Shown: positions 5,129 to 26,535 of the stretch, piece by piece
How positions within the stretch are numbered: position 1 is the stretch's first letter
How the letters are laid out: each line of letters starts with the position of its first letter
Source: a virus
Reading direction: 5' to 3' (one strand)
IMG/VR virus record: IMGVR_UViG_3300020455_000029
Span: 1-41,814 of that record
DNA length: 41,814 nt
Made by a program: the position numbers and the translations under genes
The notes under the pieces: generated by a model
Seen by the model: the letters and a program-made list of their open reading frames with translations, nothing else
What the model was told of the DNA's origin: nothing
Databases searched by the model: none

Positions 5129-5287
5129 ATGAGTTGCTCACAAAATCAAATGATTCTTGAAGATTTATTTGAAGAAATCCTATCCGAACTATACATTACT
5201 CACAAAGATGATGTCATTAGTAGAAAAGAATTGGAAGAGATTGCTACCACTATTACTCAACAAAGATTTGAGGATATGTGTCAATGA
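5129..5287 (+). CDS. hypothetical helical protein, 52 aa
   Basis: ATG at 5129, 2 nt after the previous stop, to TGA at 5285-5287. The sequence is strongly helical and acidic (MILEDLFEEILSELYI, then SRKELEEIATTITQQRFED). Its stop overlaps the next start as ATGA. No domain recognised. Confidence 0.65.
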   Translation: MSCSQNQMILEDLFEEILSELYITHKDDVISRKELEEIATTITQQRFEDMCQ

Positions 5288-5496
5288 AACTATTAACAAC
5301 AGGCAGAATTATCGGGTCATTCTTGATAGTTACTGCCTATTTTATTGTTTTACATGTATCGGCAACATTAGGTGCTTTTATGCACTTAATTGCTAACGTA
5401 ATTAGCATACCATTCTTTATAAGAACTAAGGCACATGATGTGGTTATAATGTTAACATTCCTTATGATAATATCACTCAGCAAAATTATTACATAG
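5284..5496 (+). CDS. small multi-pass membrane protein, 70 aa
   Basis: ATG at 5284 overlaps the previous stop (ATGA), which is preferred over a GTG two codons upstream. Three hydrophobic segments are visible: residues 9-25 (IIGSFLIVTAYFIVLHV), 29-46 and 53-69 (VVIMLTFLMIISLSKII), so it is an inner-membrane protein. Similar proteins with IPFFIxTKAxDVVIML occur, as far as I recall, across marine T4-like phages. The role is unknown; a holin is possible on topology alone but unsupported. Confidence 0.75.
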   Translation: MKLLTTGRIIGSFLIVTAYFIVLHVSATLGAFMHLIANVISIPFFIRTKAHDVVIMLTFLMIISLSKIIT

Positions 5497-5498
5497 TC

Positions 5499-5527
5499 TG
5501 TGCCACCTCACAAAGTGGCACACTAAA
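5499..5527 (+). repeat. gene-end inverted-repeat element, copy D (perfect arms)
   Basis: TGTGCCAC (5499-5506), CTCACAAA, GTGGCACA (5515-5522): perfect 8-bp arms, then CTAAA. It starts 2 nt after the membrane-protein stop. No T-run follows, so it is not a canonical terminator. Confidence 0.7.
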
Positions 5528-5991: not shown

Positions 5992-6022
5992 CTGTCCTTT
6001 ATTATTACTTTCTTTCTTTATT

Positions 6023-6175
6023 ATGGAACCACTAACTATCAACATTTACCAGGAAGTTTGCAAGAGTTATGCACAATTTGGTAGCAAATCTTTTGATGAT
6101 ATGTTTATAGGATTTGATGACGATTCTGTCTCATATCTTTATAACGAAGATTATTACAATGTAGAGGTGAAATAA
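6023..6175 (+). CDS. hypothetical acidic protein, 50 aa
   Basis: ATG at 6023 to TAA at 6173-6175, one base before the next ATG. It begins MEPLTINIYQEVCKSYAQFG and ends with an acidic aromatic tail (FDDDSVSYLYNEDYYN). No motif recognised. Its close packing with the next four genes suggests one operon (6023-7152). Confidence 0.6.
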   Translation: MEPLTINIYQEVCKSYAQFGSKSFDDMFIGFDDDSVSYLYNEDYYNVEVK

Positions 6176-6176
6176 T

Positions 6177-6419
6177 ATGAATAGTTTACAAGAATTCGTG
6201 GATTATGTGTGGAGTTTCTATAACCCACAATCCGAACTTTATCCGATTAAAGGTTTAACTAAGAAAGATATTTTAAGTGCATTTAATACTTATGTTGAGA
6301 GATTTGAGAAGAGAGATATAGAATATGTTCATTATTCGTGGGGTGGAGGTGATAGTTTAGATAGAGAAAGAGTAAGAGATATTATACTTGAGCAACCACA
6401 ATTCACCTTCGGAGGTTAA
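6177..6419 (+). CDS. hypothetical protein, 80 aa
   Basis: ATG at 6177, one base after the previous stop, with GAGGTGA upstream as the ribosome-binding site. The middle (GLTKKDILSAFNTYVERF) and end (DSLDRERVRDIILEQ) resemble a helical cyanophage protein with the pattern DSxDRExVRDI. No enzymatic residues stand out. Its GGAGG near the stop serves the next gene. Confidence 0.7.
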   Translation: MNSLQEFVDYVWSFYNPQSELYPIKGLTKKDILSAFNTYVERFEKRDIEYVHYSWGGGDSLDRERVRDIILEQPQFTFGG

Positions 6420-6423
6420 AACA

Positions 6424-6618
6424 ATGTCACTGCAATCTGAACTCGAATTTGAAAAGAATCATAGAAAGATTGACATCTATGATTATCTAACTGGAGATGA
6501 ATTAGATCAAGTTACTAACATTTTCCTTGAAGCATTAGCAAGGGAAGAGGGTATAACACCCGAAGTATTTGAGTTAGAAACTAATGTTTTAGTAGAGCAA
6601 ACTTACTTCAATTCTTAA
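6424..6618 (+). CDS. hypothetical protein, 64 aa
   Basis: The start is set at ATG 6424 because GGAGG at 6411-6415 is correctly spaced; an upstream in-frame start would overlap the preceding gene. It encodes a helical acidic protein (MSLQSELEFEKNHRKIDIY, then ELDQVTNIFLEALAREEG). One nucleotide separates it from the next start. No family recognised. Confidence 0.7.
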   Translation: MSLQSELEFEKNHRKIDIYDYLTGDELDQVTNIFLEALAREEGITPEVFELETNVLVEQTYFNS

Positions 6619-6619
6619 C

Positions 6620-6931
6620 ATGAACTATTCACAATCTGCAAATCCAAATGCAACTAATTCAGAGTTAGATGCAAAGGTAATTATAAAGAATTACCAACTA
6701 AATTCGTCTCAGAAAGATAAACTTATTGAGCAATTTGTTGAGTTACAAGTTGATAACATGGACACTCAAACTTTAGTTGAGTTTGTAACAGATATTCTGA
6801 TAGATGACTATTCTAAATTAACAGATAGTGAGGTAAAAGAAAGAGTTAATTTATTCCAAGATGATGAACAATTATATAATGAATTAGTTGAGAATGTATT
6901 AATTAGTGAACTATGTGAGGAGGTTAAGTAA
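6620..6931 (+). CDS. hypothetical acidic helical protein, 103 aa
   Basis: ATG at 6620. The protein is predominantly helical and acidic (KDKLIEQFVELQVDNMD, LVEFVTDILIDDYSKL, LYNELVENVLISELCEEV). There is no signal peptide or known motif. It sits in the 6023-7152 operon, with a GAGGAGG at its 3' end serving the next gene. Confidence 0.7.
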   Translation: MNYSQSANPNATNSELDAKVIIKNYQLNSSQKDKLIEQFVELQVDNMDTQTLVEFVTDILIDDYSKLTDSEVKERVNLFQDDEQLYNELVENVLISELCEEVK

Positions 6932-7629: not shown

Positions 7630-8031
7630 ATGTCTACTAAGTATATCCCGGAAGTAAATGATTACGTGATTTGGAATAGACCTAATGGTGATATTGATGA
7701 GGGTTGGGTATATTTTATTGCAGATATTCCCGAAGTTAAAAAAGGTTTTCCTACACATTCTAGGTATCTAACTATAGAAATAGGGACTAAAGATAAGAAA
7801 GAATGTATATACACAAGTGGTAAACCAATGTTACATAAGAAGCATCATATTTGTTTATTATGTTATGAACAGTGCTGGAATCAGTTGCAATTTGTTAAAA
7901 GAAGGAAGAGTCAATTAGATGATACGATAATACTAACTGCCGAACAATTGTCTGTGGAAAACTATAAACAATTAGATGGTAATAGTGTTGATATGTATAA
8001 GTCTCAAGAGCACAGATACAGAGATATATGA
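7630..8031 (+). CDS. conserved cyanophage-type protein, 133 aa
   Basis: ATG at 7630. Residues 10-60 read as a beta-rich module (DYVIWNRPNGDIDEGWVYFI then YLTIEI), followed by HKKHHICLLCYEQCWNQLQF at 69-88 with clustered His and Cys, and KRRKSQ. This layout (EGWVYF...YLTIEI...LLCY..QWN.L.YV..RKS) is one I associate with marine T4-like phages; function unknown. The Cys/His cluster could bind a metal but is not a standard zinc finger. It is the last gene before the 488-bp non-coding region. Confidence 0.75.
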   Translation: MSTKYIPEVNDYVIWNRPNGDIDEGWVYFIADIPEVKKGFPTHSRYLTIEIGTKDKKECIYTSGKPMLHKKHHICLLCYEQCWNQLQFVKRRKSQLDDTIILTAEQLSVENYKQLDGNSVDMYKSQEHRYRDI

Positions 8032-8122
8032 TAACAATCGATTTGAAGATTTATTCGTTAAATATCATTGAAACGGTATAATCTGATACACAAAATGTTA
8101 AAAATAACGTTTTAAATACCTT

Positions 8123-8130
8123 TATAAATA
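8123..8130 (+). promoter_or_regulatory. T4-late-type promoter box
   Basis: TATAAATA, identical to the boxes upstream of gp25 and gp8. Here it reads into non-coding DNA, the nearest downstream ATG of a gene being 390 bp away. Confidence 0.4.
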
Positions 8131-8148
8131 TGTATCTGTTTATTATAG

Positions 8149-8228
8149 TTTTCCACATAGTTGTTGAAAAAGGGGGTGTAATCTGTGGAATAAGTGTTAA
8201 TAACTCCTGTGGAAATCGTTGTGGAAAA
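8149..8228. other. cluster of four DnaA-box-like sequences
   Basis: TTTTCCACA at 8149-8157 on the + strand, and TGTGGAATA (8184-8192), TGTGGAAAT (8208-8216) and TGTGGAAAA (8220-8228), which are the same motif on the - strand. TTTTCCACA fits the relaxed bacterial DnaA consensus TTWTNCACA and the form reported for cyanobacteria. Confidence 0.5.
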
Positions 8229-8467: not shown

Positions 8468-8496
8468 TTGCAATATTCTGAGGTTTATGTTATAAT
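8468..8496 (+). promoter_or_regulatory. sigma-70 promoter with extended -10
   Basis: TTGCAA (8468-8473), 17-bp spacer, TGT then TATAAT (8491-8496). A second TATAAT is at 8502-8507. It drives the 47-aa gene, which has AGGAG at 8511-8515. Confidence 0.7.
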
Positions 8497-8519: not shown

Positions 8520-8663
8520 ATGAACGATTACGACGCAGAATTCGTATGGGATTATGATAACTCATGCCACGATTTTCTAGAAGAAGATTCACAGTATGAT
8601 GAAGATTACGCAAGGTTCGATGATAACAACTATCAAGAACTTGCCTACCGTCATTATGCGTGA
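8520..8663 (+). CDS. very acidic small protein, 47 aa
   Basis: ATG at 8520 with AGGAG 4 nt upstream and a good promoter, to TGA at 8661-8663. Asp, Glu and Tyr make up a large part of the peptide (MNDYDAEFVWDYDN, then FLEEDSQYDEDYARFDDN), giving a strong negative charge. Small highly acidic phage proteins often mimic DNA or bind host regulators; here that is only a possibility. The signals for expression are among the best in the window. Confidence 0.7.
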   Translation: MNDYDAEFVWDYDNSCHDFLEEDSQYDEDYARFDDNNYQELAYRHYA

Positions 8664-8905
8664 GGTCAGGTAAATTGGGTCTGATAGATTAACAACAATA
8701 GAAGCACGTATTAGGGCACGCTAAGTATAAACAATTGCCTGTTAGATTGTAGTGCGTAGAATTATAAGAACGTCGGGACGATTATATCACAAAGTAGAAA
8801 GAACTACAAGCGAATCTGTGTGGGTTTATAAACTGGCACAAGACGTATTGCAATGGGTTCGATATCATTGTATTATTAATATGTTGAGTCGTTAAATGAC
8901 AACCA

Positions 8906-9031
8906 ATGGAAGACAAATTGCTCGAAGATCTTATCAACGAACCAGGTGGAATCTTTGACATCCCAGAGTTACAAACTGACGACAAATTTGATGTCGAAAG
9001 TTATATCAATGGGGACACAGATTATGCGTGA
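8906..9031 (+). CDS. acidic small protein, 41 aa
   Basis: ATG at 8906 to TGA at 9029-9031. It begins MEDKLLEDLINEPGGIFDIP and ends with an acidic tail (DDKFDVESYINGDTDYA). The 242 bp before it (8664-8905) contain no credible reading frame or clear terminator. It overlaps the next gene by 8 bases. No family recognised. Confidence 0.55.
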   Translation: MEDKLLEDLINEPGGIFDIPELQTDDKFDVESYINGDTDYA

Positions 9032-9164
9032 TAAAATGATAAGATATCCAGACGGATTTTATGAGGAAATTGAGAAGTATGCCAGTGAATTAGAAGTCAC
9101 TTGTGATTACTATCTCTCCGAATTCTATCTCCAAACTAACAACAACTCTTCACCCACTAAATGA
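9024..9164 (+). CDS. hypothetical protein, 46 aa
   Basis: The start is set at ATG 9024, overlapping the previous stop, with GGGGA at 9011-9015 as a plausible ribosome-binding site. A further in-frame GTG at 8946 would overlap the preceding gene almost entirely. The peptide MRDKMIRYPDGFYEEIEKYA continues into an amphipathic helix and a Ser/Asn tail. The stop overlaps the next ATG (ATGA at 9161-9164). Confidence 0.6.
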   Translation: MRDKMIRYPDGFYEEIEKYASELEVTCDYYLSEFYLQTNNNSSPTK

Positions 9165-9292
9165 CAACAATTCGTTACTGCTTCCCTAACAATCAACGTT
9201 ACAAATTAATGTCCTTTAGTTCTTATGATAAGGCAGTAAAGTGCATTGAGTTATTAAAAACAATTGATTGCAAGGTTGAGTTACAACAATGA
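9161..9292 (+). CDS. hypothetical protein, 43 aa
   Basis: ATG at 9161 overlapping the previous stop, to TGA at 9290-9292. It encodes MTTIRYCFPNNQRYKLMSFS followed by SYDKAVKCIELLKTIDCKVEL, a beta-strand/helix arrangement with three cysteines. Last gene of the 8906-9292 operon, followed by a strong terminator. Confidence 0.6.
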   Translation: MTTIRYCFPNNQRYKLMSFSSYDKAVKCIELLKTIDCKVELQQ

Positions 9293-9322
9293 TCACCTAA
9301 TCCTTATTCGTTCGTTAACAAC

Positions 9323-9356
9323 AACAGTCCCCCGTATTTGTGGGGGGTTGTTTATA
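9323..9356 (+). terminator. intrinsic terminator
   Basis: AACAGTCCCCC (9323-9333) pairs with GGGGGGTTGTT (9342-9352) through two wobble pairs, loop GTATTTGT, followed by a T-rich tail. It closes the small-gene region. Confidence 0.85.
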
Positions 9357-9403
9357 TTTTCAATGGATCCCCTAAGCTATAAACGACCCAGATCGACCTT
9401 TCG

Positions 9404-9438
9404 ATATAAGGGAATTACAAAAATTTTTTTCCCTATAT
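9404..9438. promoter_or_regulatory. inverted repeat upstream of the AbrB-like gene
   Basis: ATATAAGGGAA (9404-9414) is mirrored by TTCCCTATAT (9429-9438) with a one-base difference. AAACGACC occurs on either side at 9381-9388 and 9441-9448, exactly 60 bp apart. TATAAAAA at 9436-9443 resembles the late box TATAAATA. This could be an operator or a promoter region. Confidence 0.4.
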
Positions 9439-9464
9439 AAAAACGACCACAAGGTTTTTCGGGT

Positions 9465-10813: not shown

Positions 10814-11215
10814 ATGGCCATTACAAGGATATCAAGATCGTTTAAAGATATTAGTCTGTCTTTTAAACCACATCCAGTGACAAAAGATCTTCCTATATTA
10901 AAAAATGAGAGTGCGATTCGTAGATCGGTAAGGAATATTGTGGAAACAATTCCAACTGAGAAGTTTTTTGATTCTGATTTTGGGTCTGACGTATATAAAA
11001 GTTTATTTGACTTTGTTGATTTTGGTACTGCATCTATTATACAGGATCAAATTAAGACATCCATTAGTAATTTTGAACCCAGAGTGAATAATGTAGATGT
11101 GGGAGTAAATCCACAACCTGATGATAATTCATTCGAGTGTACAATTATATTTGATATCATTGGTCAAGAATTTCCTACACAGGAATATTCATTCATATTA
11201 GAAGCAACAAGATAA
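10814..11215 (+). CDS. 25: gp25 baseplate wedge subunit, 133 aa
   Basis: The start is set at ATG 10814 (MAITRISRSFKDI); a TTG two codons earlier would fall almost at the predicted transcript start. Length matches T4 gp25 (132 aa). It carries the gp25 pattern AIRRSVRNIVETIPTEKFFD and the NFEPRV core (EPR motif) shared with contractile-injection-system sheath-initiator proteins. gp25 joins the gp6-gp7-gp53 wedge and nucleates the sheath. First gene of the late block behind a TATAAATA promoter; 4 bp from gp6. Confidence 0.93.
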   Translation: MAITRISRSFKDISLSFKPHPVTKDLPILKNESAIRRSVRNIVETIPTEKFFDSDFGSDVYKSLFDFVDFGTASIIQDQIKTSISNFEPRVNNVDVGVNPQPDDNSFECTIIFDIIGQEFPTQEYSFILEATR

Positions 11216-13134: not shown

Positions 13135-16100
13135 ATGATACAAACAGGATTTGAAAGTAGAGTAAAGATTCAAGATATTATATCGAATCAACTTCCAAAT
13201 TATATTTTGGATGAGAGTCCTCTTACGTCTGATTTTCTTAAACAATATTATATTTCACAAGAATATCAAAGTGGTGCTGTTGATCTTGCAGATAATTTAG
13301 ATCAATATTTAAGACTTGATAACTTGACTCCTGATGTTGTAGTAGATTCTACAACACTATCAGAAAAAATTAGTAGTACAGATACAACAATAACCGTATC
13401 CAATACAAAAGGATTCCCAAATACTTACGGTTTATTAAAAATTGATAATGAGATTATTACATATACAGATAAAACATCTACAACATTTACTGGATGTGAA
13501 CGTGGTTTTAGTGGTATTACTAGTTATCATCAAGATTTGAATGAAGAAGATCTTGTATTTTCTACTTCTAATGCTGCAGAACATGAGAAAGATGCAAATA
13601 TTCAGAATTTAAGTTCTTTATTTCTTAAAGAATTTTATAAGAAAACAAAGAAAACTTTTACTCCAGGATTAGAAAATATTAATTTTGATCCTGAAGTTGA
13701 TGCTGGTAATTTTATAAGAGAAGCAAGATCACTTTATCAAACTAAAGGAACAAATGAATCATTTAGAATATTATTTAATGTTCTTTATAATGAAACTCCC
13801 AATATTTTAAATTTAGAAGATAACTTAATTAAACCTTCTACTGCAAGATATGTTAAGAGAAGAATTGCGATAGGACAAATAATTAGTGGTAATCCTTTAA
13901 AATTAAAAGGACAATCTGTATTTAAAAGTAATTTAAACACTGATATTAATATTTCTGTATCGGAAGTTGAACCATTTACTAGGATTGGTATAGGAACTTA
14001 TTATAGCTTTGGGTTGTTCATTGATAATAGTGGATCTAATGAGATTTCAAATACATTTGATATTATCCCAAATACAAAGGTAATCGGAGATATACCTATC
14101 AATTCTTCTGTTATTACTGTAGATTCTACAGTTGGATTTAGTACTTCAGGAGTTTTGGTATCTGGTGATAATAAAATAAATTATACACATAAAACATTAA
14201 ATCAATTCTTGGGAGTAACTTCCGTTACTTCACCTATTGAAACAATGGATGATATTAGAAGTGATCAATATTATTATGGTTATGAGAATGGTGATATTAA
14301 CAAAGAAGTAAGGTTAAGATTTACTGGGGTATTATCTGAATTTACGCAAGATAATACATTATCAGTAAATGATGGTGATATTATAGGTGTAAAAAATATA
14401 GGAGATAAGGTTAAAAATAATAATAAAAATTATAAAGAAATATTCGCAAATTCTTGGATCTATAATACTAGTTCAACAACTAAACTTGAATATTTATCGA
14501 ATGGAGCAGCATCTGCCAATTTGATGAGTCCAGTGGACAGATCAAGTTTAAAATTTGGTGATAGAGTAGAATTTATTGATAGCACTAATAAAAAGGTAAT
14601 CTATCCTACTCCTGGCAAAGCATTTCCATATGTCAGTAAAAAATTACAGAATGGACAAAAAGGAATTGATTTAGATGAATTAGATGAATTTAAAATCACT
14701 GAAAATGATAATTTTTCTTTAAGGAGGAAATTAAAAACAGCAAATAGTTCTTCTACTCCTATAGAATTTGGTAATGATAAAATAACTTCTGATGTTCAGA
14801 ATGTTTATTTTGGGGATGATTATGCATATGTTGCAGCAAATTCTTTACCATCTTATAGTCCCGATGCAACATCTGATAATTCCTTTCCATATAATGAGCA
14901 AATAAATGTTAATATTAGATCATCAATATTAAATTTATCTGATGATCCTAATGGGTTAAATCCAGAGAGTCTTATTGATAATGATCCAATAAAAGCATTA
15001 TACACTACAATATCATTTACTGAACCTCATTTATTTGAAAATGGTGATAAAATTTATTATCAACCAACAAATGCTCCTTTAGTTGGTATAGAAACTGGAA
15101 TTTATTTTATCAAGAAAATTGATGATAAAGATATCCAATTATATGGATCTAGATCCAGTATCATAAGTAATCAATACATTCCTGTAGGAAAACCTGTATC
15201 TGATGATGGTACTCATAAATTTACATTATATTCACAAAGATCTGGAGAAATCTCTCCTCAAAAATTACTTAAAAAATTTCCATTAAGTTCCAACATTTAT
15301 AATGGTGAATCAACACCAACTACTACTGGTGGAACTGGTATGTTGATTAATGGTGTAGAAATTAATAATTATAAATCATCCCATAAAATGTATTATGGTC
15401 CATTAGATGATGTTTTAGTGGTGAATGGTGGTGATAATTTTGACGTAGTAAACCCTCCAAATATTACTGTACCAAATTTATCTGGTACAACAGCACTTGT
15501 ACAACCAGTTTTATCAGGTAAAATTGATAAAGTCTTTTTATCTAATCAAGATTATGATATTGAATCTGTAGTTTCTATTGGTATTAGTGGGGGTAATGGA
15601 ACTGGATATAATTTAGAACCAGTTCTTAAAGTTAGATCTAGAGAAGTTTCATTTAATGCAAGACCAACAACTTTTGGTGGTGGTATTAATACTACTCCAA
15701 ATACTAGCAATACTGGTAAAATAACTTTTTTAAGTAATCATAATTTTACTACAGGACAATCAGTAAAATATGAATGTTCAACTAGTTCTTTAGTTGGTGT
15801 TGGTGTTGGTGGTAATGAGACTCTTGCCAATTTTGGAAATTATTATGCAAGAGTAATGAATTCTACAACAATTAAACTTTATAATACGTTTGATGATTCT
15901 ATTTTTGGAAATACTGGAATTAATACAATTCAGTTTAATGGGGAGGGATCTGGAATTCAGAAATTTACAAGTGATCCAAAAATGACTGTTGATGATATTA
16001 GAGTCTTAGATGGTGGAAGAAATTATACAAATAGAAAATTATTAGTTAAACCAACTGGAATATCAACCTATACAGATACAATCATCTTTAAAGATCATGG

Positions 16101-19100
16101 ATTTAATAGTGGAGAATTAATATCATATTCTGCTGTAGATGGTAATTCTGCAAAAATAGAAGGATTGGATACAACTAATATTCAATATTATGTTCTTAAG
16201 ACAGATGATGATAATTTTAGGTTATGTAATGCTGGTGTTGGAGGAACAAATAGAACAAATTATGAAAATAAAAACATTGAATTTTTAGGAAGTACTGGAA
16301 CTGGTTATCAACAATTTTCTTACCCTGAGATAAAAGGATTTGTGAAAATAATTTCCACAACAGGTCAAGAAGCTGATATTCCAATAACCCCATCAGTTAA
16401 AGGATCTATAATTGATGTTTATGTATATGAAGGTGGAACAGGATATGGGTCAACAATTGCTAATAATGAAGTAAATCCACTTATTACAATAAAAACTGGT
16501 GTAAATGCGATATTAACTCCATATTTTAATAATGGACGATTATTTAGTGTTGATGTTGAGTATGGTGGTAAAGATTATTATTCAATACCAGATTTACAAG
16601 TTATTGATCCTACTGGAAAGGGTGTTGGTGCAGAATTAAAACCAATTATTGAAAATTTGAAAATAACAGGTGTTGAAATTTCTAATGCGGGGATTGGATA
16701 TTCATCATCTTCCACAATTTCAGTTAAGTCTGCAGGACAAAATGCAAAACTTATTCCTCAAGTAAGATCTCTTACAATTAACAATAAAGTTAAATTTGGT
16801 GGTGATAGTCCTTATTATCAATTGGTTGAGACTGATAATAAATTAAAATATGCTGCATATGCATACAATTCTACTTTATTTGACGATGATGGAAATAAAT
16901 CGTCAGGTATTATTGGATGGGCATATGATGGAAATCCAATATATGGTCCTTATGGTTTAGGAGATCCTAGTGAAAGTCCATCAGATACTAGTGGATTAGC
17001 AAGAAAACTTAAAAGTGGATATGTTTTGAATACTGATAATGTAATTGATAGACCATTAAAAAGTGATTTTGAGGAAGGATATTTTATTGAAGATTATAAA
17101 TTTGATAATAGTGGTGATTTGGATAAATTTAATGGTAGATTTGAAAAAAATAAGGAATTTCCTAATGGTGTTTATGCATACCATGCAACTATAAATGAGT
17201 TTCCATATTTTATAGGTAATGAATATAGGTCATTACCTATAACTGAAAATATTACTACTTTTGATCAATCTACGTTCGATTTTAATACTTCTGGTGTATT
17301 AAGAAATACTTTGCCATATAAAGTATCAGATAAGTTTGCTGATAATGATTTTATTATTGAAACAAATGAAATACAAGAACAAGAAATTGAAATTCAATCA
17401 GTTTCTAGTGGAAGTATAACTGGATATGATGTATTAAATGTTGGATCTGATTATATAACTAACGAAACATTAGAATTTGATGAATCTGGGACTAAAGGAG
17501 ACTCATTTTCTGCAAAAGTTGGATCTATAAAAGGTAAGGATATTAGTGTTATTGAAACTACTGTAGATACATATGATGATTCATTATTAATATGGGGTGA
17601 AGATACTCTAGAGTGTTTTATTGAACCAAATCATCCTTTAAAAGATGGTGATAGGGTAGTTATTTCAGGACTTTCAAGTGATTTGTCTAATATTAATGGA
17701 TCTTATAAGATTGGAATAACAACATTTTCGTCAACTGCAATATCAACAATATTTTCTTCACCAACTCCAGGATTTACTACTGAAATTTATGTTTCTGCGA
17801 TACCAGAATCAATTTCTATTGGAAGTAGTATATTGGTAGGTCCAGAAACTTTAAAAATTCTGAATATATTTGGTAATGATAATATTCTTAGAATTGAAAG
17901 AGATTCTACTAATAATGCATCAGAATATCCAGCCGGAATAGGTATAACTTATATTACTAATTCATTCAAAATTAATAAGGAAACTGATTATTTTAATTCT
18001 TCAAGAAAGAAAAGTATTTATTTTAATCCTACCAAATCCGTTGGTATTGGTACTACTCCAGGAACTAATTATGAGGTATCATTTGATTTTGCAGGAAATA
18101 GTGTTACTAGAAATATTCCAGTAAGGCAACTTTATATTGAAAATCATCCATTTAAGACTAATCAAAAAATTTCTTTAACAATACCTTCTGGAAATATTGC
18201 AATATCAACTAATAAAGTAGATCCTCCATTTAACATACCAACATCTCTATATGTTGTAAATAAAGGAATTAATACACTTGGAATAAAAACAGGAATTGGT
18301 ACTGCTAGTGATGGATATGAATATGAAGAAGTTTATTTCCGTAGTCTTACTAATGCTGATACTGATAAGTATTTGTTGCAATCAGATGATATTGTTCAAG
18401 TTACATCTAAAGTTCAGAGAATAAAATCAGTAGTTTCTGTATCAACTGTTGGAACATTTAATTCTGGATATCATGAATTATCAAATGGTGATGATATTAT
18501 ATTGAAAGTTGAACCAAATATTAATTCTGGAATAGGATCAGATACTAATATCGAAGTAAAACGTGATTTATCATCAGGAAAAATTTTAATTAATCCAATT
18601 ACCTTTAATGTTGGTGATGTTAATATCAATGATAATACTATTACATTGGGTTCTAAAGGATTTAATTTAAAAACTGGAGATAAAGTTTTATATTCTGGTA
18701 GTGCTGCAGGATTATCTACAGGAAATTACTATGTTTATAAAGTTGATGATAAGATAGTTAAATTATGTAAAACATATTCTGAAGCAACACAAGAAATACC
18801 AAATGTTATTGATATTACAAGTGTAGGTATTTCAGGTCAATCTATTAGTTTAATAAACCCTCCTATTAAATACACAAATAATACTAATTTAGTATTTGAT
18901 CATTCAGATTCTTCTATGAATGGTTATGATTTTAAAGTGTATTATGATCAAGAATTTAAAAATCCATTTGTTGGAACAGGAAATACTTCATCATTTAACG
19001 TTTCTACTACTTCAAATACTACAACTCTCACTTATAGTGATAATTTATCTAAAAAACTTTATTATAATATAGAAAAATCAGGATTTATTTCAACTTCTGA

Positions 19101-22100
19101 TACTGATGTTCTAAATTATTCTGAAATATTATCAATTAATAGTGTATATGATGGTGAGTATATTATTAGTGGTGTTGGGCAAACAAACTTTACTATATTT
19201 TTAAATGAAATTCCAGAAAGAACTACATATCAAGCAACTGAATGTGATGTAATAGAATATACAACCAAATCAAAGTCTGCTAAAGGTCCTATTAACAAAA
19301 TAAAAATCATTTCTGGAGGATCTGGATATAAAAATCTTCCTACTTTTGTTGGTGTTGGAACTACTTCAACAGGTAAAGATGCATCAATTATATTAAAATC
19401 AGATAGTATGGGTAATGTATCTAAAGTTAGATTTATTAATGCTGGATTTGAGTATTCATCTGATAAAACTTTAGAACCAATTGCTTATGTATCACCAATA
19501 ATAGAATTAAAAAATTCAAATAGTGTTGGTATTGTGACTGTAATTTCTGGTGGAGAAAATTATCTTAGTGCACCAAAAATTGTTATTATTGATTCTGATA
19601 CTAAAGAGGTAATTAATAGTGGATTATTAGAAGCAGAATTATTAGATACTTCTATTTTTGAAGTTAATGTTGCAGAAAAACCTTATGGATTGCCAGAACA
19701 AACAGTAACATTAAAAACATCTAATAATACTAATGGTATTACAATTTCACGAGTAGATTCACCAGGAACATCAAATGGACCATCAAATCCTAGTGAATTT
19801 CTTCTTACTCTTGTTACTCCAACAACTAATTTCGGAACAGCACCATTCAAGTTAAATGATGAGATTTTTGTTGAAGGTATTGAAAAATATGGTACTGATG
19901 GTACTGGTTGCAATTCAACAGATCTTGGATATGAATTTTTGAAAGTAACCGAAATTATTGGTAGTAGTGAAAACCCAAATCCATTTAAATTTAGAGTTAG
20001 TGCTGCTGGAATATCTACTGGAGTAGGTGTTGCAGTTACAATACCAACTCAATTTACCTCAGTAGTTAATAAATCTGATTATCCAACATTTAGTGTTGTA
20101 CAATCCAAAGAAGACTTTGATATTGGTGAAACTTTAATTGTAAATGATGTAATAACAAATATTAAAATAACTCAAAATAATCAAACTTCAGTTAAAGTTA
20201 GTGGACTTAATGTAGATGATTTAAGTGTTGATGATGTTATTGTTGGAAATACATCAGGAAATAAAGGAACAATAAAAAAAATTACTGAAAATAATGGTAA
20301 GTATGATGTCGGTTTTTCACATATAAAGGATATTGGTTGGTTTGATGAAATTGGAAAATTAAATGATGATACTCAAGTAACACCTAATAATGATTATTAT
20401 CAGAATTTATCTTATTCGGTACAAAGTTCTATTACCTGGGATAAATTACAAACTCAAGTAAATAATATTCTTCATACGAGTGGATTGAAAAATTTTGCAG
20501 ATACTGGAATTACTTCAACATCAAGTATTAGTATTGGGTCTACATCAGAAACAAGTATAATACGTGATTATATAAGTGAAAAGAGGGTTGATGAGATTAA
20601 AGGTCTTGATTTGGTTAGGGATATTGATATTACAGGTAATGTGGCAAGATTAATAGAATTTAAGAATCTAAGACTATCAGATTATATTAGTTGTTTAACT
20701 AATGACGTTTTTGTTATTGATAATATTAATAGTCAATTTTCAAATTTAGAAGATAGTGAAACTTATTATACAGATATAATGGAGATTCCAGCAGATGGAA
20801 GATATACTAATTTGTTGGTTAGAATTAGTGATAATAATCGTATTACAGGAATATCAACACAAATTCAATTATCAGAATTGGTTTTGATGAATTCTTATGC
20901 ATATTCTACAAACAATCAAAATACTTTGTTGGAAAAATATAGAGTATTTAATTCTGATGTTGATGGATATGTTTCTATTGAAGAAGATCAATTGGGAAGT
21001 TTTATAATTGAAAAAAATGATAATAATATAAATGTTCTCAGATTCTATCCAAAAGATAAATTTGATACTGATTATAATTTAAAAATTCTTACTGGTAGAT
21101 TTACTACAGTTAATTCTGGTGTTTCGACAATTAAAGTTGGTTCAATTGATAAAAGTGTATTTGTTCAAACAGTTCCTACTGGAAATACTGATTTGATAGT
21201 GGAAGTTGGTATTGATAGTATAAGTTCATTGTTTGCAAATAGTCAAATTATTGATGTTTCAACTGGAGAAATGAATTTTGTTGAATCTTATATAACACAA
21301 GATGGACAACATAGTTTTATATCAGAAGCATATAATGATACTAATCCAGTTGCAACTAGTGATAATAAAATTGGTATTCTAACTTCTACATTATCTGGGA
21401 ATGTTTTATCACTCAAATATGAAAATAACACATCATCCGATGTAATTATTAAGTCTAATGTTGTTGGTTTTGGATCAACTGGATTTATTACACCAGAAGG
21501 ACATACTGGTGTTGGAACATATAGATTCAAATCGATTGATGAACCAGATGGATATGAAAGATCTATAATTTATCAAGGAATATCAACTAGTGGTGTTGGA
21601 AAAACAACAATTGTTGATATAAGTTCTAATTTATTTGATTCTGCCAAATCTATAGTTGAAGTTAGTGTAGGATCTTCAAAAGCAGTTCATGAAGTATTAT
21701 CTGTTCATGACACAAATAATATTTTTGTACAACCAGCAAAATTCATTTCTGGAGTAGTTTCTCCAATTGGTAATACTGGACTAGGTACTTTTGGTGGTGA
21801 ATATGAAGGAGGTAATTTAGTTGTTAGTTTCTATCCAGATGATGAAGTTGGTATGACAACAGTATCGATATTTAATGAATGTTTATATACTGGGGTTGAT
21901 GCATTGAATATACCTCAAACTTTATTCTATGGAAATGTTTATAATGAAAAATTAGGATACAAATACTATAATGGTATTAGTGGTGATCGTATTAATAGAA
22001 GAGATTTCAAATTAAACACAAATTCTATTCCAATATATGCAAAATCATTTAATCCAAATTCATCCATTTTAGATGCTGATACAGGTACTTTTAATATTGA

Positions 22101-25100
22101 TAATCATTTCTTTAGAACTGGTGAAGAATTAGTTTATACTCCAAAATCAACAATAATTGGAATTGGTTCTACACCCGTGATGTATCGTGATATAAGTGCT
22201 GGTATTACATCAACTCTACCATCTACAGTATTTGGTATAAAGAAAACTGACAATTCATTCCAAATTGCAACTACAAGAGCAAATGCAAATGCTGGTACTG
22301 CAATAACATTTACTGGATTTGGTGAAGGAAATGCACATACTTTATCAATGAAAGATCCTAATGAAAGATCATTAATAACTATCGATGATATAGTTCAATA
22401 TCCAGTAACACCATCTCCAATATCACATACACTAAAATACAATCATAATGTTCATATTGGGTTGAATAATACTATATTCTCTTTAAGTGGTATTTCAACA
22501 ATACATGTTGAGGATGTATTAAAAATTGATAATGAATATATGAGAGTTATTGACGTTGGTACTGGATCAAGTTCAATTGGTCCAATTACACCAGGAATCG
22601 GAACTTACCCATTAGTTTCTGTTGAAAGAGGTTCTGTTGGTACTGCTAAATCTATTCATGAAAATGGGGATCAAGTTAATAAGTTTAAAGGTGGTTTTAA
22701 TATTGTAGATAGTACAATTTACTTTACCAATGCACCAAGAGGAAATCCTAATAGATCCTTAACTGATGGTGGATTAGACTTTCCAACTTCAGAATTTACT
22801 GGAAGAACATTCCTAAGAAATAATTATTCTACTAATGACATATATGATGATGTTTCTGATCAATTTAATGGAATAACAACACAATTTACATTAACTGTTG
22901 GTGGTGCAAATACTATTGGTATTGGAACTACAGGTGGAAATGGTATATTATTCATAAATGGTATATTCCAAACACCAACAACCGATAATAATCCAAGAAA
23001 TAACTTTAAGATTATAGAAACTGGTAGTGGAGCAACAGGTGTAACTAGTGTTATATTCTCAGGAATAACTTCAACTAATGGTGAATTAATTATTTCCGAT
23101 AGTGATGTTAATAGAAATGGAATACCTAGAGGTGGAATTCCTATATCATATGGTTCAACAACTGGATCTGGTTATGCACCTTTAGTTGGAGCATTGGTAA
23201 GACCTGTTTTAGATAATGATGGAACTATTACTGGTATAGTTGGTGTTCCAACTGCTGGAAGTCCATTGGCAGTGGATAACGCACAATATGACAATACATC
23301 GGGTATATTAACAGTTACTACTTTTGAAGAACATCAATTAGTTAATGGTGGAGTTAGTGTTGATGAAGTTAAATTGATGCGTCTTGAATTTTCATGTCCT
23401 GCTGGTCATGAAGGTATAACAACTACTTTCTTCCCAAGTGGTGTTTATGGAGATAGGTTCTCTGTTATTAGTGTTGGTGCAACAAATGAATTTACAGTAA
23501 ATGTTGGAACTAGTACAATTCCACATACCTATGTTGGTTCTGGAACTGCTTTCCCATATTATGGTGATTTAAAACTAGGATCTGGTTACAATAGCATTGT
23601 TTCTATTGGTGTTTCAGTTATAGATGATGGATATGATCATAGATTTGTAAGTGCTGAAAATAATTCAATTATTAAGACCACCTGGGATGGTACGACAATT
23701 ACTCCTACAAATGCAACATATCATCCTAGTTCTGGAATTGTTACCTTTACGGTAGCATCTCATGGATTAGCAACAGACGATTTGGTAGGTATCAAAACAG
23801 AGTCATTGACATTTAAGTGCTCTAAAGACAATTATGCATCAGATCATAAGTATCCCAGACCACCATTCCCTCATACTTTTGATAGTGCTGATGCTAATGC
23901 TGTTAATAACTCATTACAACCTACTGGTGCTGCTTACAACCCCCTAACAGGTGATATGGTATTGACATTTGCTTCTGCTCATGGAATAAGTAATGGAGCA
24001 ACTATAACAATTGCCAATAATTCTATTAACTTTAAGTGTTCTAGAGATGGTTTCACAACAATACATAGTTATCCAAGATCAGCAGATCCTGCATCTGGAT
24101 CTAGTTTAACGGTTTCTAATGCAACTGCTAATAGTGGAAAAGATCTTACAGTTAATGTTGGAGAATCAAAAACAGGAGATCATGTATCTGGTATTTTAAC
24201 AGCAGTTACTAAGGTAAATAATGACATCTTTAGTGTATTTGTTGGTTCATCTGTAGGAAAGGATGCAACTATTACAGCAACTCCAAAAACATATAATACT
24301 CATGTATTTGATTCTTCTAATAGTTCTTTAAATAATGCTCTTTTATTTGGTGATTGGACGGGTTCTACAGTAAGAACTCCAAATAATGCAACATATGCTC
24401 CAGATACTGGTGATTTGGTATTGTCAATTGGATCTCATACCTTTACAACTTCAAATACTGTTGGAATTAAGACTAGTTCTTTAGCATTCAGATGCAATCA
24501 AGATGATTACAATAGTATTCATAAGTATCCTAGAGAAACAGATCCAGTTAATGGTATACAAACTGCAATTACTGCTGTAGATCAATCTGGTGGAACAATT
24601 ACAGTTAACGTTGGAAAATCTAATGTTAATACTGGTGGTGCATTAGACTTTACTATAGTTGGTGGTGGTAAGAGTTATACTAATCCTGTAATATCTGTAT
24701 CACCACCATCATATAGTAATTTGGATGTAATAGGAGTTTCTAGATTGGGAGAAGGTCCAACTACAGATACTGGATCTGGTCTTCGTGTAACTCCTGTAGT
24801 TGGTGCTAGTCAGACATCTGGAATTGGATCTGGATTCTTTGAAGTTAGTGATTTTGAAATTACTAGAACTGGTTATGGATTTAAGAGTGGTGATGTTTTT
24901 GAACCAATTGGATTAGTTACTGATAGAAAATTATATGAACCACATGAGAAGGCAACAATGCAAATTCAAAATGTTTATTTTGATGATTTTACAATGTGGC
25001 AATTTGGAGAATTTGATTATATTGATTCAATTGAAAATTACCAGGATGGTCTAAGAACAAGATTCCCATTATATTATAATGGAAATAGAATTAGTGTTGA

Positions 25101-26535
25101 TGCTGATCCAGCATTTGATAGTGATTTGAATAATGTAATGCTTGTGGTTATAAATGGTGTTATTCAGCAACCAAAAGAAGCATATAATTTTATAGGTGGA
25201 GCAAGTATAAATTTTGTAAGACCTTTGGATAAAGAAGATAAGGTGGCAATATTCTTCTATAAAGGAACAGATCTTGAAGATGCTGTAGTTTCAACAGGAA
25301 TGACTGTGATTGTTGAAACGGGTGATAGAGTTCAAGTATCAGGTGTAGCAACTGGTTTTGATAATTCTGGTAATCTAGGTGTTTTACAACAAGATGAACG
25401 AATTGTTAAGTATTTGAATACTTCAACTAGTTTAGAAACAAATATCTATACTGGAGATGGTATAGATGAGGACTTATTCAGACCAATAAATCTTCTAAAA
25501 CAGAAAGAAGATCGGATAATTGATAGTACATTAGTAACAAAGAAGAGAGTTAGTTTAGAACCAATAATTCTTCCATCTGCAAAAATAATTGGTGATTTTA
25601 CTACTAGTGATAATAGTTTTTATGTTGATAGTGCTGATTTATTTGATTATGAGCAACCAGATCAACAATTTAGTGGAATAATTGTTTCGGGTAAAGAAAA
25701 TCCATCTATACCATCTGCAACTGCAACCATTAATAGTACAGAAACTACGGTAACATCAATTTCAGTTACTGGAGGTTCTGGATATACTTCAGTTCCATCT
25801 GTTTCTATTTCGGCACCACCAGAAATTGGTGTTGGTGTTGGAACCACTGCAACTGCAACTGCAACCATATCTAATGGTACTGTAGACACCATTACAGTAA
25901 CTGAAGGTGGACTTGGATATACAATCGCACCTAAAGTCTTAATTGAACCACCAAGTTCAATTGAAGAGCAATTGGCATCACCTGCAGGGGGTATTACGGT
26001 TCAAACATCTGCAGGAATACTTACTGGAATAGGGACAACTACTGTTGGTTCATCATTAGGAATCAGATTTGTTGGTATGTCAACAGCAGGAGCAGGAGTA
26101 GCTGCATTTGCCCCATTAAGTGTTGGGAATCCACTTTACATTTATGGAACTCAAGTTGGAACTGGAGTAACATCTATGAATGTTACGGGATCTGATACTG
26201 TTGGTATTGGAACTAGTTTTGCAGATAATGTATATACTGTTGCAGAATTTACTACATATGGATCTCAACCAAATGTAGTTGGTTTTATTACATGTGTTAT
26301 AAAATCAGATACTAATGTAGTTGGACTTGCATCAACTTCAACAACTTTAAGTCCTGTTGGATATTATTCTGTTGGTAAGTTGACTAATTTTACTAGAAGT
26401 TCTTCACCAATTTCTCTCAGTGTTACTGGATTAACAGTTGATGTAGGGTTAACAACATTCCCAACATTACAAAGAAGAGGTGGTCCAGGAGATGATACTT
26501 GGAAGCAAACTGGTGGATTAAAAACACCAGAATAA
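13135..26535 (+). CDS. 7: gp7 baseplate wedge protein, giant YHYH-containing form, 4466 aa
   Basis: ATG at 13135. The N-terminal part (to about residue 260) carries the gp7-type wedge sequence, e.g. FLKEFYKKTKKTFTPGLENI and the following segment with FIREARSLYQTKGT and KPSTARYVKRRI. T4 gp7 is 1032 aa, so this form is over four times longer. A YHYH-type domain lies at about 1235-1370 (GWAYDGNPIYGPYG, YAYHAT, EFPYFIG). Many GxGY...P beta repeats occur (about 820, 958, 1098, 1141-1212, 2059-2150, 3841, 4211-4276). Three related Cys/His units lie at about 3516-3815. No frameshift was seen. The extra mass is inferred to be surface or adhesive baseplate decoration. Confidence 0.85.
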   Translation: MIQTGFESRVKIQDIISNQLPNYILDESPLTSDFLKQYYISQEYQSGAVDLADNLDQYLRLDNLTPDVVVDSTTLSEKISSTDTTITVSNTKGFPNTYGLLKIDNEIITYTDKTSTTFTGCERGFSGITSYHQDLNEEDLVFSTSNAAEHEKDANIQNLSSLFLKEFYKKTKKTFTPGLENINFDPEVDAGNFIREARSLYQTKGTNESFRILFNVLYNETPNILNLEDNLIKPSTARYVKRRIAIGQIISGNPLKLKGQSVFKSNLNTDINISVSEVEPFTRIGIGTYYSFGLFIDNSGSNEISNTFDIIPNTKVIGDIPINSSVITVDSTVGFSTSGVLVSGDNKINYTHKTLNQFLGVTSVTSPIETMDDIRSDQYYYGYENGDINKEVRLRFTGVLSEFTQDNTLSVNDGDIIGVKNIGDKVKNNNKNYKEIFANSWIYNTSSTTKLEYLSNGAASANLMSPVDRSSLKFGDRVEFIDSTNKKVIYPTPGKAFPYVSKKLQNGQKGIDLDELDEFKITENDNFSLRRKLKTANSSSTPIEFGNDKITSDVQNVYFGDDYAYVAANSLPSYSPDATSDNSFPYNEQINVNIRSSILNLSDDPNGLNPESLIDNDPIKALYTTISFTEPHLFENGDKIYYQPTNAPLVGIETGIYFIKKIDDKDIQLYGSRSSIISNQYIPVGKPVSDDGTHKFTLYSQRSGEISPQKLLKKFPLSSNIYNGESTPTTTGGTGMLINGVEINNYKSSHKMYYGPLDDVLVVNGGDNFDVVNPPNITVPNLSGTTALVQPVLSGKIDKVFLSNQDYDIESVVSIGISGGNGTGYNLEPVLKVRSREVSFNARPTTFGGGINTTPNTSNTGKITFLSNHNFTTGQSVKYECSTSSLVGVGVGGNETLANFGNYYARVMNSTTIKLYNTFDDSIFGNTGINTIQFNGEGSGIQKFTSDPKMTVDDIRVLDGGRNYTNRKLLVKPTGISTYTDTIIFKDHGFNSGELISYSAVDGNSAKIEGLDTTNIQYYVLKTDDDNFRLCNAGVGGTNRTNYENKNIEFLGSTGTGYQQFSYPEIKGFVKIISTTGQEADIPITPSVKGSIIDVYVYEGGTGYGSTIANNEVNPLITIKTGVNAILTPYFNNGRLFSVDVEYGGKDYYSIPDLQVIDPTGKGVGAELKPIIENLKITGVEISNAGIGYSSSSTISVKSAGQNAKLIPQVRSLTINNKVKFGGDSPYYQLVETDNKLKYAAYAYNSTLFDDDGNKSSGIIGWAYDGNPIYGPYGLGDPSESPSDTSGLARKLKSGYVLNTDNVIDRPLKSDFEEGYFIEDYKFDNSGDLDKFNGRFEKNKEFPNGVYAYHATINEFPYFIGNEYRSLPITENITTFDQSTFDFNTSGVLRNTLPYKVSDKFADNDFIIETNEIQEQEIEIQSVSSGSITGYDVLNVGSDYITNETLEFDESGTKGDSFSAKVGSIKGKDISVIETTVDTYDDSLLIWGEDTLECFIEPNHPLKDGDRVVISGLSSDLSNINGSYKIGITTFSSTAISTIFSSPTPGFTTEIYVSAIPESISIGSSILVGPETLKILNIFGNDNILRIERDSTNNASEYPAGIGITYITNSFKINKETDYFNSSRKKSIYFNPTKSVGIGTTPGTNYEVSFDFAGNSVTRNIPVRQLYIENHPFKTNQKISLTIPSGNIAISTNKVDPPFNIPTSLYVVNKGINTLGIKTGIGTASDGYEYEEVYFRSLTNADTDKYLLQSDDIVQVTSKVQRIKSVVSVSTVGTFNSGYHELSNGDDIILKVEPNINSGIGSDTNIEVKRDLSSGKILINPITFNVGDVNINDNTITLGSKGFNLKTGDKVLYSGSAAGLSTGNYYVYKVDDKIVKLCKTYSEATQEIPNVIDITSVGISGQSISLINPPIKYTNNTNLVFDHSDSSMNGYDFKVYYDQEFKNPFVGTGNTSSFNVSTTSNTTTLTYSDNLSKKLYYNIEKSGFISTSDTDVLNYSEILSINSVYDGEYIISGVGQTNFTIFLNEIPERTTYQATECDVIEYTTKSKSAKGPINKIKIISGGSGYKNLPTFVGVGTTSTGKDASIILKSDSMGNVSKVRFINAGFEYSSDKTLEPIAYVSPIIELKNSNSVGIVTVISGGENYLSAPKIVIIDSDTKEVINSGLLEAELLDTSIFEVNVAEKPYGLPEQTVTLKTSNNTNGITISRVDSPGTSNGPSNPSEFLLTLVTPTTNFGTAPFKLNDEIFVEGIEKYGTDGTGCNSTDLGYEFLKVTEIIGSSENPNPFKFRVSAAGISTGVGVAVTIPTQFTSVVNKSDYPTFSVVQSKEDFDIGETLIVNDVITNIKITQNNQTSVKVSGLNVDDLSVDDVIVGNTSGNKGTIKKITENNGKYDVGFSHIKDIGWFDEIGKLNDDTQVTPNNDYYQNLSYSVQSSITWDKLQTQVNNILHTSGLKNFADTGITSTSSISIGSTSETSIIRDYISEKRVDEIKGLDLVRDIDITGNVARLIEFKNLRLSDYISCLTNDVFVIDNINSQFSNLEDSETYYTDIMEIPADGRYTNLLVRISDNNRITGISTQIQLSELVLMNSYAYSTNNQNTLLEKYRVFNSDVDGYVSIEEDQLGSFIIEKNDNNINVLRFYPKDKFDTDYNLKILTGRFTTVNSGVSTIKVGSIDKSVFVQTVPTGNTDLIVEVGIDSISSLFANSQIIDVSTGEMNFVESYITQDGQHSFISEAYNDTNPVATSDNKIGILTSTLSGNVLSLKYENNTSSDVIIKSNVVGFGSTGFITPEGHTGVGTYRFKSIDEPDGYERSIIYQGISTSGVGKTTIVDISSNLFDSAKSIVEVSVGSSKAVHEVLSVHDTNNIFVQPAKFISGVVSPIGNTGLGTFGGEYEGGNLVVSFYPDDEVGMTTVSIFNECLYTGVDALNIPQTLFYGNVYNEKLGYKYYNGISGDRINRRDFKLNTNSIPIYAKSFNPNSSILDADTGTFNIDNHFFRTGEELVYTPKSTIIGIGSTPVMYRDISAGITSTLPSTVFGIKKTDNSFQIATTRANANAGTAITFTGFGEGNAHTLSMKDPNERSLITIDDIVQYPVTPSPISHTLKYNHNVHIGLNNTIFSLSGISTIHVEDVLKIDNEYMRVIDVGTGSSSIGPITPGIGTYPLVSVERGSVGTAKSIHENGDQVNKFKGGFNIVDSTIYFTNAPRGNPNRSLTDGGLDFPTSEFTGRTFLRNNYSTNDIYDDVSDQFNGITTQFTLTVGGANTIGIGTTGGNGILFINGIFQTPTTDNNPRNNFKIIETGSGATGVTSVIFSGITSTNGELIISDSDVNRNGIPRGGIPISYGSTTGSGYAPLVGALVRPVLDNDGTITGIVGVPTAGSPLAVDNAQYDNTSGILTVTTFEEHQLVNGGVSVDEVKLMRLEFSCPAGHEGITTTFFPSGVYGDRFSVISVGATNEFTVNVGTSTIPHTYVGSGTAFPYYGDLKLGSGYNSIVSIGVSVIDDGYDHRFVSAENNSIIKTTWDGTTITPTNATYHPSSGIVTFTVASHGLATDDLVGIKTESLTFKCSKDNYASDHKYPRPPFPHTFDSADANAVNNSLQPTGAAYNPLTGDMVLTFASAHGISNGATITIANNSINFKCSRDGFTTIHSYPRSADPASGSSLTVSNATANSGKDLTVNVGESKTGDHVSGILTAVTKVNNDIFSVFVGSSVGKDATITATPKTYNTHVFDSSNSSLNNALLFGDWTGSTVRTPNNATYAPDTGDLVLSIGSHTFTTSNTVGIKTSSLAFRCNQDDYNSIHKYPRETDPVNGIQTAITAVDQSGGTITVNVGKSNVNTGGALDFTIVGGGKSYTNPVISVSPPSYSNLDVIGVSRLGEGPTTDTGSGLRVTPVVGASQTSGIGSGFFEVSDFEITRTGYGFKSGDVFEPIGLVTDRKLYEPHEKATMQIQNVYFDDFTMWQFGEFDYIDSIENYQDGLRTRFPLYYNGNRISVDADPAFDSDLNNVMLVVINGVIQQPKEAYNFIGGASINFVRPLDKEDKVAIFFYKGTDLEDAVVSTGMTVIVETGDRVQVSGVATGFDNSGNLGVLQQDERIVKYLNTSTSLETNIYTGDGIDEDLFRPINLLKQKEDRIIDSTLVTKKRVSLEPIILPSAKIIGDFTTSDNSFYVDSADLFDYEQPDQQFSGIIVSGKENPSIPSATATINSTETTVTSISVTGGSGYTSVPSVSISAPPEIGVGVGTTATATATISNGTVDTITVTEGGLGYTIAPKVLIEPPSSIEEQLASPAGGITVQTSAGILTGIGTTTVGSSLGIRFVGMSTAGAGVAAFAPLSVGNPLYIYGTQVGTGVTSMNVTGSDTVGIGTSFADNVYTVAEFTTYGSQPNVVGFITCVIKSDTNVVGLASTSTTLSPVGYYSVGKLTNFTRSSSPISLSVTGLTVDVGLTTFPTLQRRGGPGDDTWKQTGGLKTPE

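Follow-up and report, generated by a model that had tools for sequence, protein, structure and literature searches.

Background

Origins assisted by host DnaA are known from mobile elements such as pSC101 and P1 (oriR), in which host-type boxes lie beside AT-rich DNA; these origins additionally depend on a Rep protein encoded by the plasmid, together with the iterons of that protein. DnaA boxes are also clustered away from the chromosomal origin, in titration sites of the datA type. The phage locus described here bears a likeness to both arrangements. To our knowledge, phage T4 does not borrow the DnaA protein of its host, and a host-DnaA-dependent origin is not a known mode of replication for T4-like phages. 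On the start of replication in cyanomyoviruses, we know of nothing beyond the prediction of a single theta origin for phage Syn9.

The origins of T4 are of the R-loop type and were described without DnaA. In oriF and oriG a promoter is combined with an unwinding element and an R-loop is formed, and oriE contains 12-nt iterons, short repeats whose role is not known (PMC3016281). In cyanobacteria, the consensus of the DnaA box is TTTTCCACA, and two boxes are bound cooperatively by domain IV of DnaA (PMC4674748). The theta origin of Syn9 was predicted earlier (PMC2984593), and its existence, not its position, enters the comparison below. In the open-licence literature on cyanophage DnaA, boxes and origins, no earlier description of DnaA boxes in cyanophages was found.

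A cluster of DnaA boxes in a cyanophage contig

The stretch of DNA analysed here, referred to as the window, is a 41.8-kb fragment of a member of the Kyanoviridae (T4-like cyanophages) from IMG/VR. It starts with small early-type ORFs, followed by gp25 (10814), gp6 (11220), and a large module of wedge and fibre genes. Directly after gp6, one ORF of 4466 aa spans positions 13135-26535; in Syn9 this place is that of the large fibre-like gene (60762-78992).

The original prediction placed four DnaA-box-like 9-mers within 80 bp, one on the plus and three on the minus strand, in a 488-bp non-coding stretch with a very AT-rich left flank. All of this was confirmed: ORFs reaching 60 aa are absent between 8032 and 8519, and a 60-bp stretch of the flank has an AT content of 85%, corresponding to the 99.9th percentile. 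That the gap is also the largest gene-free region is doubtful, since positions 8664-9464 contain tiny ORFs only. Two of the four boxes are exact and two carry one mismatch (Table 1). Exact TTTTCCACA occurs three times in the record, and all three copies fall inside 276 bp. TTCCACA is the sole 7-mer of the window reaching four or more copies per 80 bp; 0.03 7-mers with four copies in 80 bp were expected and none of 100 simulations produced one. The loose pattern TTWTNCACA, proposed earlier for a density count, showed no excess across the window (9 found, 9.1 expected), in contrast to the stricter TTCCACA. The cluster is therefore genuine and not a product of chance. No tRNA or known RNA was found in the gap, Rfam giving no match.

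The AT-rich block next to the boxes is kept in many cyanophages with and without boxes, as judged by blastn. The window, S-SM2, and S-BM3 clearly have AT-rich DNA around the site, and AT content near the boxes is unremarkable in Syn19, S-SM1, and P-SSM7. The motif TATAAATA is present on the plus strand of the window in exactly three copies (8123, 10790, and 26555), the latter two lying about 24 bp upstream of gp25 and of the ORF at 26580, both late structural genes.

Table 1 Features of the box region in the window and related sites in other phages
Feature	Position	Strand	Remarks
133-aa ORF, phrog_522, left neighbour of the gap	7630..8031	+	relatives found
Fifth DnaA box, TTTTCCACA, exact, inside the upstream ORF	7953..7961	-	also in L084, L085, L110
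AT-rich block, candidate unwinding element	8084..8147		blastn matches; 60-bp window with 85% AT from ~8092
TATAAATA, T4-type late-promoter motif	8123..8130	+	~26 bp before the first DnaA box
DnaA box TTTTCCACA, exact	8149..8157	+	motif search of the record
DnaA box TATTCCACA, 1 mismatch	8184..8192	-	motif search of the record
DnaA box ATTTCCACA, 1 mismatch	8208..8216	-	motif search of the record
DnaA box TTTTCCACA, exact	8220..8228	-	motif search of the record
Divergent copy of the noncoding motif CTTAGCRNGC...TGTCAA	8334..8369	+	downstream of the box region
Sigma-70-type promoter-like site, TTGCAA-17-TATAAT	8468..8496	+	before a small ORF; consensus match only
47-aa acidic ORF ending ELAYRHYA	8520..8663	+	similar ORF in relatives
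gp25, baseplate wedge gene	10814..11215	+	positional landmark, 2.7 kb from the boxes here
CTTAGC motif in isolates	Syn19 50719; S-PM2d 9779; P-SSM2 65923; P-HM1 34476
Arrays of 7-8 boxes in relatives	L565 12-229; L547 3941-4163; L594 1063-1241; L353 2165-2341; L589 7422-7584

Conservation of the site among cyanophages

Conservation in relatives had been named as a check of the prediction, and its outcome is favourable: across the phage family the boxes keep their position and their helical phasing. The cluster is retained in the near relatives L084, L085, and L110. For isolates, TTTTCCACA was counted in 18 records and its position relative to gp25 was determined in 15 complete genomes. Close pairs of TTTTCCACA are found in eight of these 15, Syn9, Syn19, S-PM2 (S-PM2d), S-SM1, S-SM2, S-ShM2, P-SSM7, and P-TIM68, and always precede gene 25 by 1.6-7.6 kb; in Syn9 they are located at 52.6 kb and in S-PM2d at 9.7 kb. 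In S-BM3, the same place has a less compact cluster of one exact and several near boxes. The remaining six, P-SSM2, P-SSM4, P-HM1, S-RSM4, Sf-CH5, and P-RSM4, are box-less, with the neighbourhood still present; in P-RSM4 just a degenerate TTTTCCGCA is left. Single boxes in P-RSM4 (55557, in apparent coding sequence) and P-HM1 were rejected as members of the site, as they are not syntenic. The syntenic site itself was located upstream of gp25 in all 15 complete isolates at distances of 1.6 to 9.4 kb. Among the matches listed, the boxes also lie upstream of gp25 in every metagenomic contig with both on the fetched piece (88 of 88).

Searches that did not presuppose the site gave the same picture. 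When all 9-mers of the isolates were scanned for inverted pairs 12-39 bp apart, TTTTCCACA ranked first with seven genomes versus four for the next best 9-mer. In IMG/VR, a search by pattern only listed 80 loci, at least 58 of which are T4-like cyanophage contigs, and with the pattern reversed as control the number was at least five of 80; related contigs in these counts are not independent.

Some relatives harbor larger arrays, with five to eight exact boxes within ~70-310 bp, and in several of these the boxes flank a 47-bp AT-rich core on both sides. The five arrays in Table 1 have seven to eight exact TTTTCCACA boxes around this conserved core (aaatcttataaacccttacaaacac...ttataaacc).

In box-less relatives, other palindromes, AAGGATAGTATCCTT, TTGGATACTATCCAA, and CTATTGATTCTCAATAG, occupy the equivalent position (L086-L089, L091, L135, and L134, near 6000-6200; Sf-CH5, 36.6 kb; S-RSM4, 140.3 kb). 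It looks as if another factor had replaced DnaA in these phages. In P-SSM2-like and S-BM3-like phages, dense repeats of ATCTAGTCGAGAT and TCTCGACTAGAT were also noted (L134, ~6200-6700; L086; L087; L133, ~5230-5500), which cover promoter, noncoding, and small-ORF sequence 3' of the element.

The motif CTTAGCRNGC...TGTCAA is present as a single copy 3' of the box region in nearly every isolate genome, box-bearing or box-less. By eye, a conserved RNA hairpin (GTGAT...ATCAC, CTTGTG...CATAAG) looked likely in this motif, but it was rejected: pair counts were near those of shuffled sequences, and RNAalifold predicted no structure.

Spacing of the boxes

Distances between neighbouring boxes are not distributed evenly. 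Spacers of convergent pairs cluster at 3-5, 12-16, 25-27, and 47-48 bp, those of direct pairs at 2-3 and 12-13 bp, and those of divergent pairs at 4 and 10 bp. The steps are thus about 10.5-11 bp, approximately one helical turn. In 24 clusters of related contigs, 41 of 48 cluster-spacer combinations fall into the three short convergent classes (p ~1e-10 against uniform spacing, for classes named after the data were seen). In the window, the pairs 8149/8184 (spacer 26) and 8208/8220 (direct spacer 3) belong to phased classes, and the pair 8184/8208 (direct spacer 15) is slightly off. Because the steps are near one helical turn, the position of a box on the face of the helix appears to matter, as for cooperating proteins. 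Such quantised spacing favours proteins that bind cooperatively and counts against a hairpin in RNA.

The candidate binding protein

Upstream of dnaN in Cyanobiaceae (Prochlorococcus-like and others), TTTTCCACA, TTTTCCACT, and related boxes are found, followed by CCTACTACTACTA; the 9-mer of the phages is thus identical to boxes of host origins. The earlier suggestion that the sites fit the cyanobacterial box form is strongly supported by the published consensus (PMC4674748), by these host oriC 9-mers, and by conserved position and phasing. Host DnaA retains the recognition motif GGKDHTTV. A phage-encoded DnaA C-terminal domain, which is the box-binding part, was detected in none of 18 phage records, and a DnaA of the phage's own was rejected as binder for this reason. 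With a host-type 9-mer and no phage DnaA, host DnaA is the likely binder, and judged from these sequences it very likely binds the phage boxes.

The convergent phased pair is essentially absent from host chromosomes (one of 201 genomes). The single case forms a long hairpin, and the host origin was rejected as source of the pair. In the chromosome of Synechococcus WH7803, two convergent copies of TTTTCCACA separated by 35 bp were noted at 1819368-1819420 (L505), possibly a site for host DnaA away from dnaN.

Comparison with known origins

The phage site resembles the dnaN-linked oriC of cyanobacteria in several respects. Both are intergenic and contain the same 9-mer in several boxes of mixed orientation, which in the phages are locally clustered above chance. 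AT-rich DNA alongside, as in oriC, is clear in part of the phages. In contrast to oriC, the phage site has no dnaN or dnaA neighbour, no trio run, and no skew switch, and possesses convergent phased pairs. The DnaA-trio CTACTACTA beside a box was detected at two of 157 phage loci versus 24 of 30 host dnaN loci. A skew check, suggested along with the original prediction, was unfavourable, with no strand-skew inflection at the site in raw, detrended, or 4-fold-degenerate form; at 4-fold-degenerate positions neither GC nor TA skew switches at the boxes, and the detrended skew is confounded by the one-way gene order. Skew was consequently dropped as an argument for an origin. Lack of the trio and of a skew switch places the element outside the oriC class, and the six box-less isolates among 15 likewise count against an oriC of the bacterial style.

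With T4 origins the site shares an AT-rich noncoding element with promoters near, in related phages, and the short repeats recall oriE. A T4-type R-loop origin has a middle-mode promoter followed by an AT-rich unwinding element; the promoter motifs seen in the window are of the sigma-70-like and late types. Of the gene context, only the neighbourhood of gene 25, which oriF adjoins, is common to oriF and the cyanophage site. However, oriF follows the 3' end of gene 25 and has uvsY as its other neighbour, whereas the cyanophage boxes are about 2-10 kb on the 5' side of gene 25 and uvsW and uvsY are far away. Equivalence with oriF was rejected, as the gene order differs and the helicase gene close to the boxes of Syn9 does not encode UvsW. 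Unlike datA, the array is virus-borne, conserved in position, and located beside AT-rich DNA.

Interpretation of the box cluster

The reading that we consider moderately probable is a cis element bound by host DnaA, most likely helping to start early phage replication. It is favoured because several phased boxes lie at one conserved place in early-gene surroundings, beside AT-rich DNA in the lineage of the window, and because a theta origin was predicted for Syn9. Host DnaA would bind the boxes in the infected cell; at least two boxes sharing one helix face would let it assemble cooperatively beside the AT-rich DNA, and this assembly may help to open the duplex and so start early replication. 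The T4-type replisome of the phage (gp59, gp41, gp61, and gp43) would then take over, and recombination-dependent replication would come after that. The origin role originally proposed thus stands in part: the reading as DnaA boxes is strongly supported, and an origin, which we infer without a DnaA-trio at the site, is the best of several readings.

DnaA is a bacterial transcription factor, and bound host DnaA might instead repress or activate a nearby promoter, tying phage gene expression to the state of the host. The target could be an early promoter ~170-300 bp downstream, most isolates having a sigma-70-like promoter and a small ORF 3' of the boxes, or, in the lineage of the window, the late promoter suggested by TATAAATA ~26 bp ahead of the first box. 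The downstream ORFs vary among phages, the -35 element is far from the boxes, and arrays of up to eight boxes around an AT-rich core resemble an origin, so that control of transcription is rather unlikely. Alternatively, with rising phage copy number the array could sequester the DnaA of the host and so halt replication of the host chromosome, in the manner of datA. Exact boxes of the high-affinity type are indeed locally denser than in host chromosomes, but a decoy needs no fixed place. The array, by contrast, occurs as a single copy and in synteny across the family, and one site would bind only a small number of molecules in early infection. Given this constant position, we regard such capture as unlikely.

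Another regulator of phage or host with a DnaA-box-like site might also be considered, as the palindromes AAGGATAGTATCCTT and CTATTGATTCTCAATAG of box-less lineages hint that more than one factor might be used at this place; since the phage 9-mer is identical to the DnaA box of the host and to the boxes of host oriC regions, this is very unlikely. Most pairs are convergent inverted repeats able to pair in RNA, which would suit a hairpin acting as terminator or processing site with the boxes as arms and not as protein sites. An RNA loop gives no reason for spacers in steps of ~10.5-11 bp, though, and direct and divergent pairs are phased too. Moreover, the arms keep one 9-mer, changes in a single arm (ATTTCCACA, TTATCCACA) are uncompensated, and Rfam gave no match. 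No covarying stem was found, the pair counts covering the downstream CTTAGC motif and the boxes being judged by their phased spacing. The hairpin is therefore highly improbable.

Conclusions

An exact candidate of 30-200 bp is now available in named laboratory phages, Syn9, Syn19, S-PM2, S-SM1, S-ShM2, P-SSM7, and P-TIM68. As a tentative generalisation, with chances that we place a little below even, the marine cyanomyoviruses, which form a major group of T4-like phages, would start replication from a single syntenic, host-DnaA-dependent origin on helically phased boxes. The sequences suggest that T4-like cyanophages borrow the replication starter DnaA of their host. If true, a lytic T4-like phage would be tied to the host initiator, and thereby possibly to the cell cycle and light cycle of the host, in viruses that are very abundant in the ocean.
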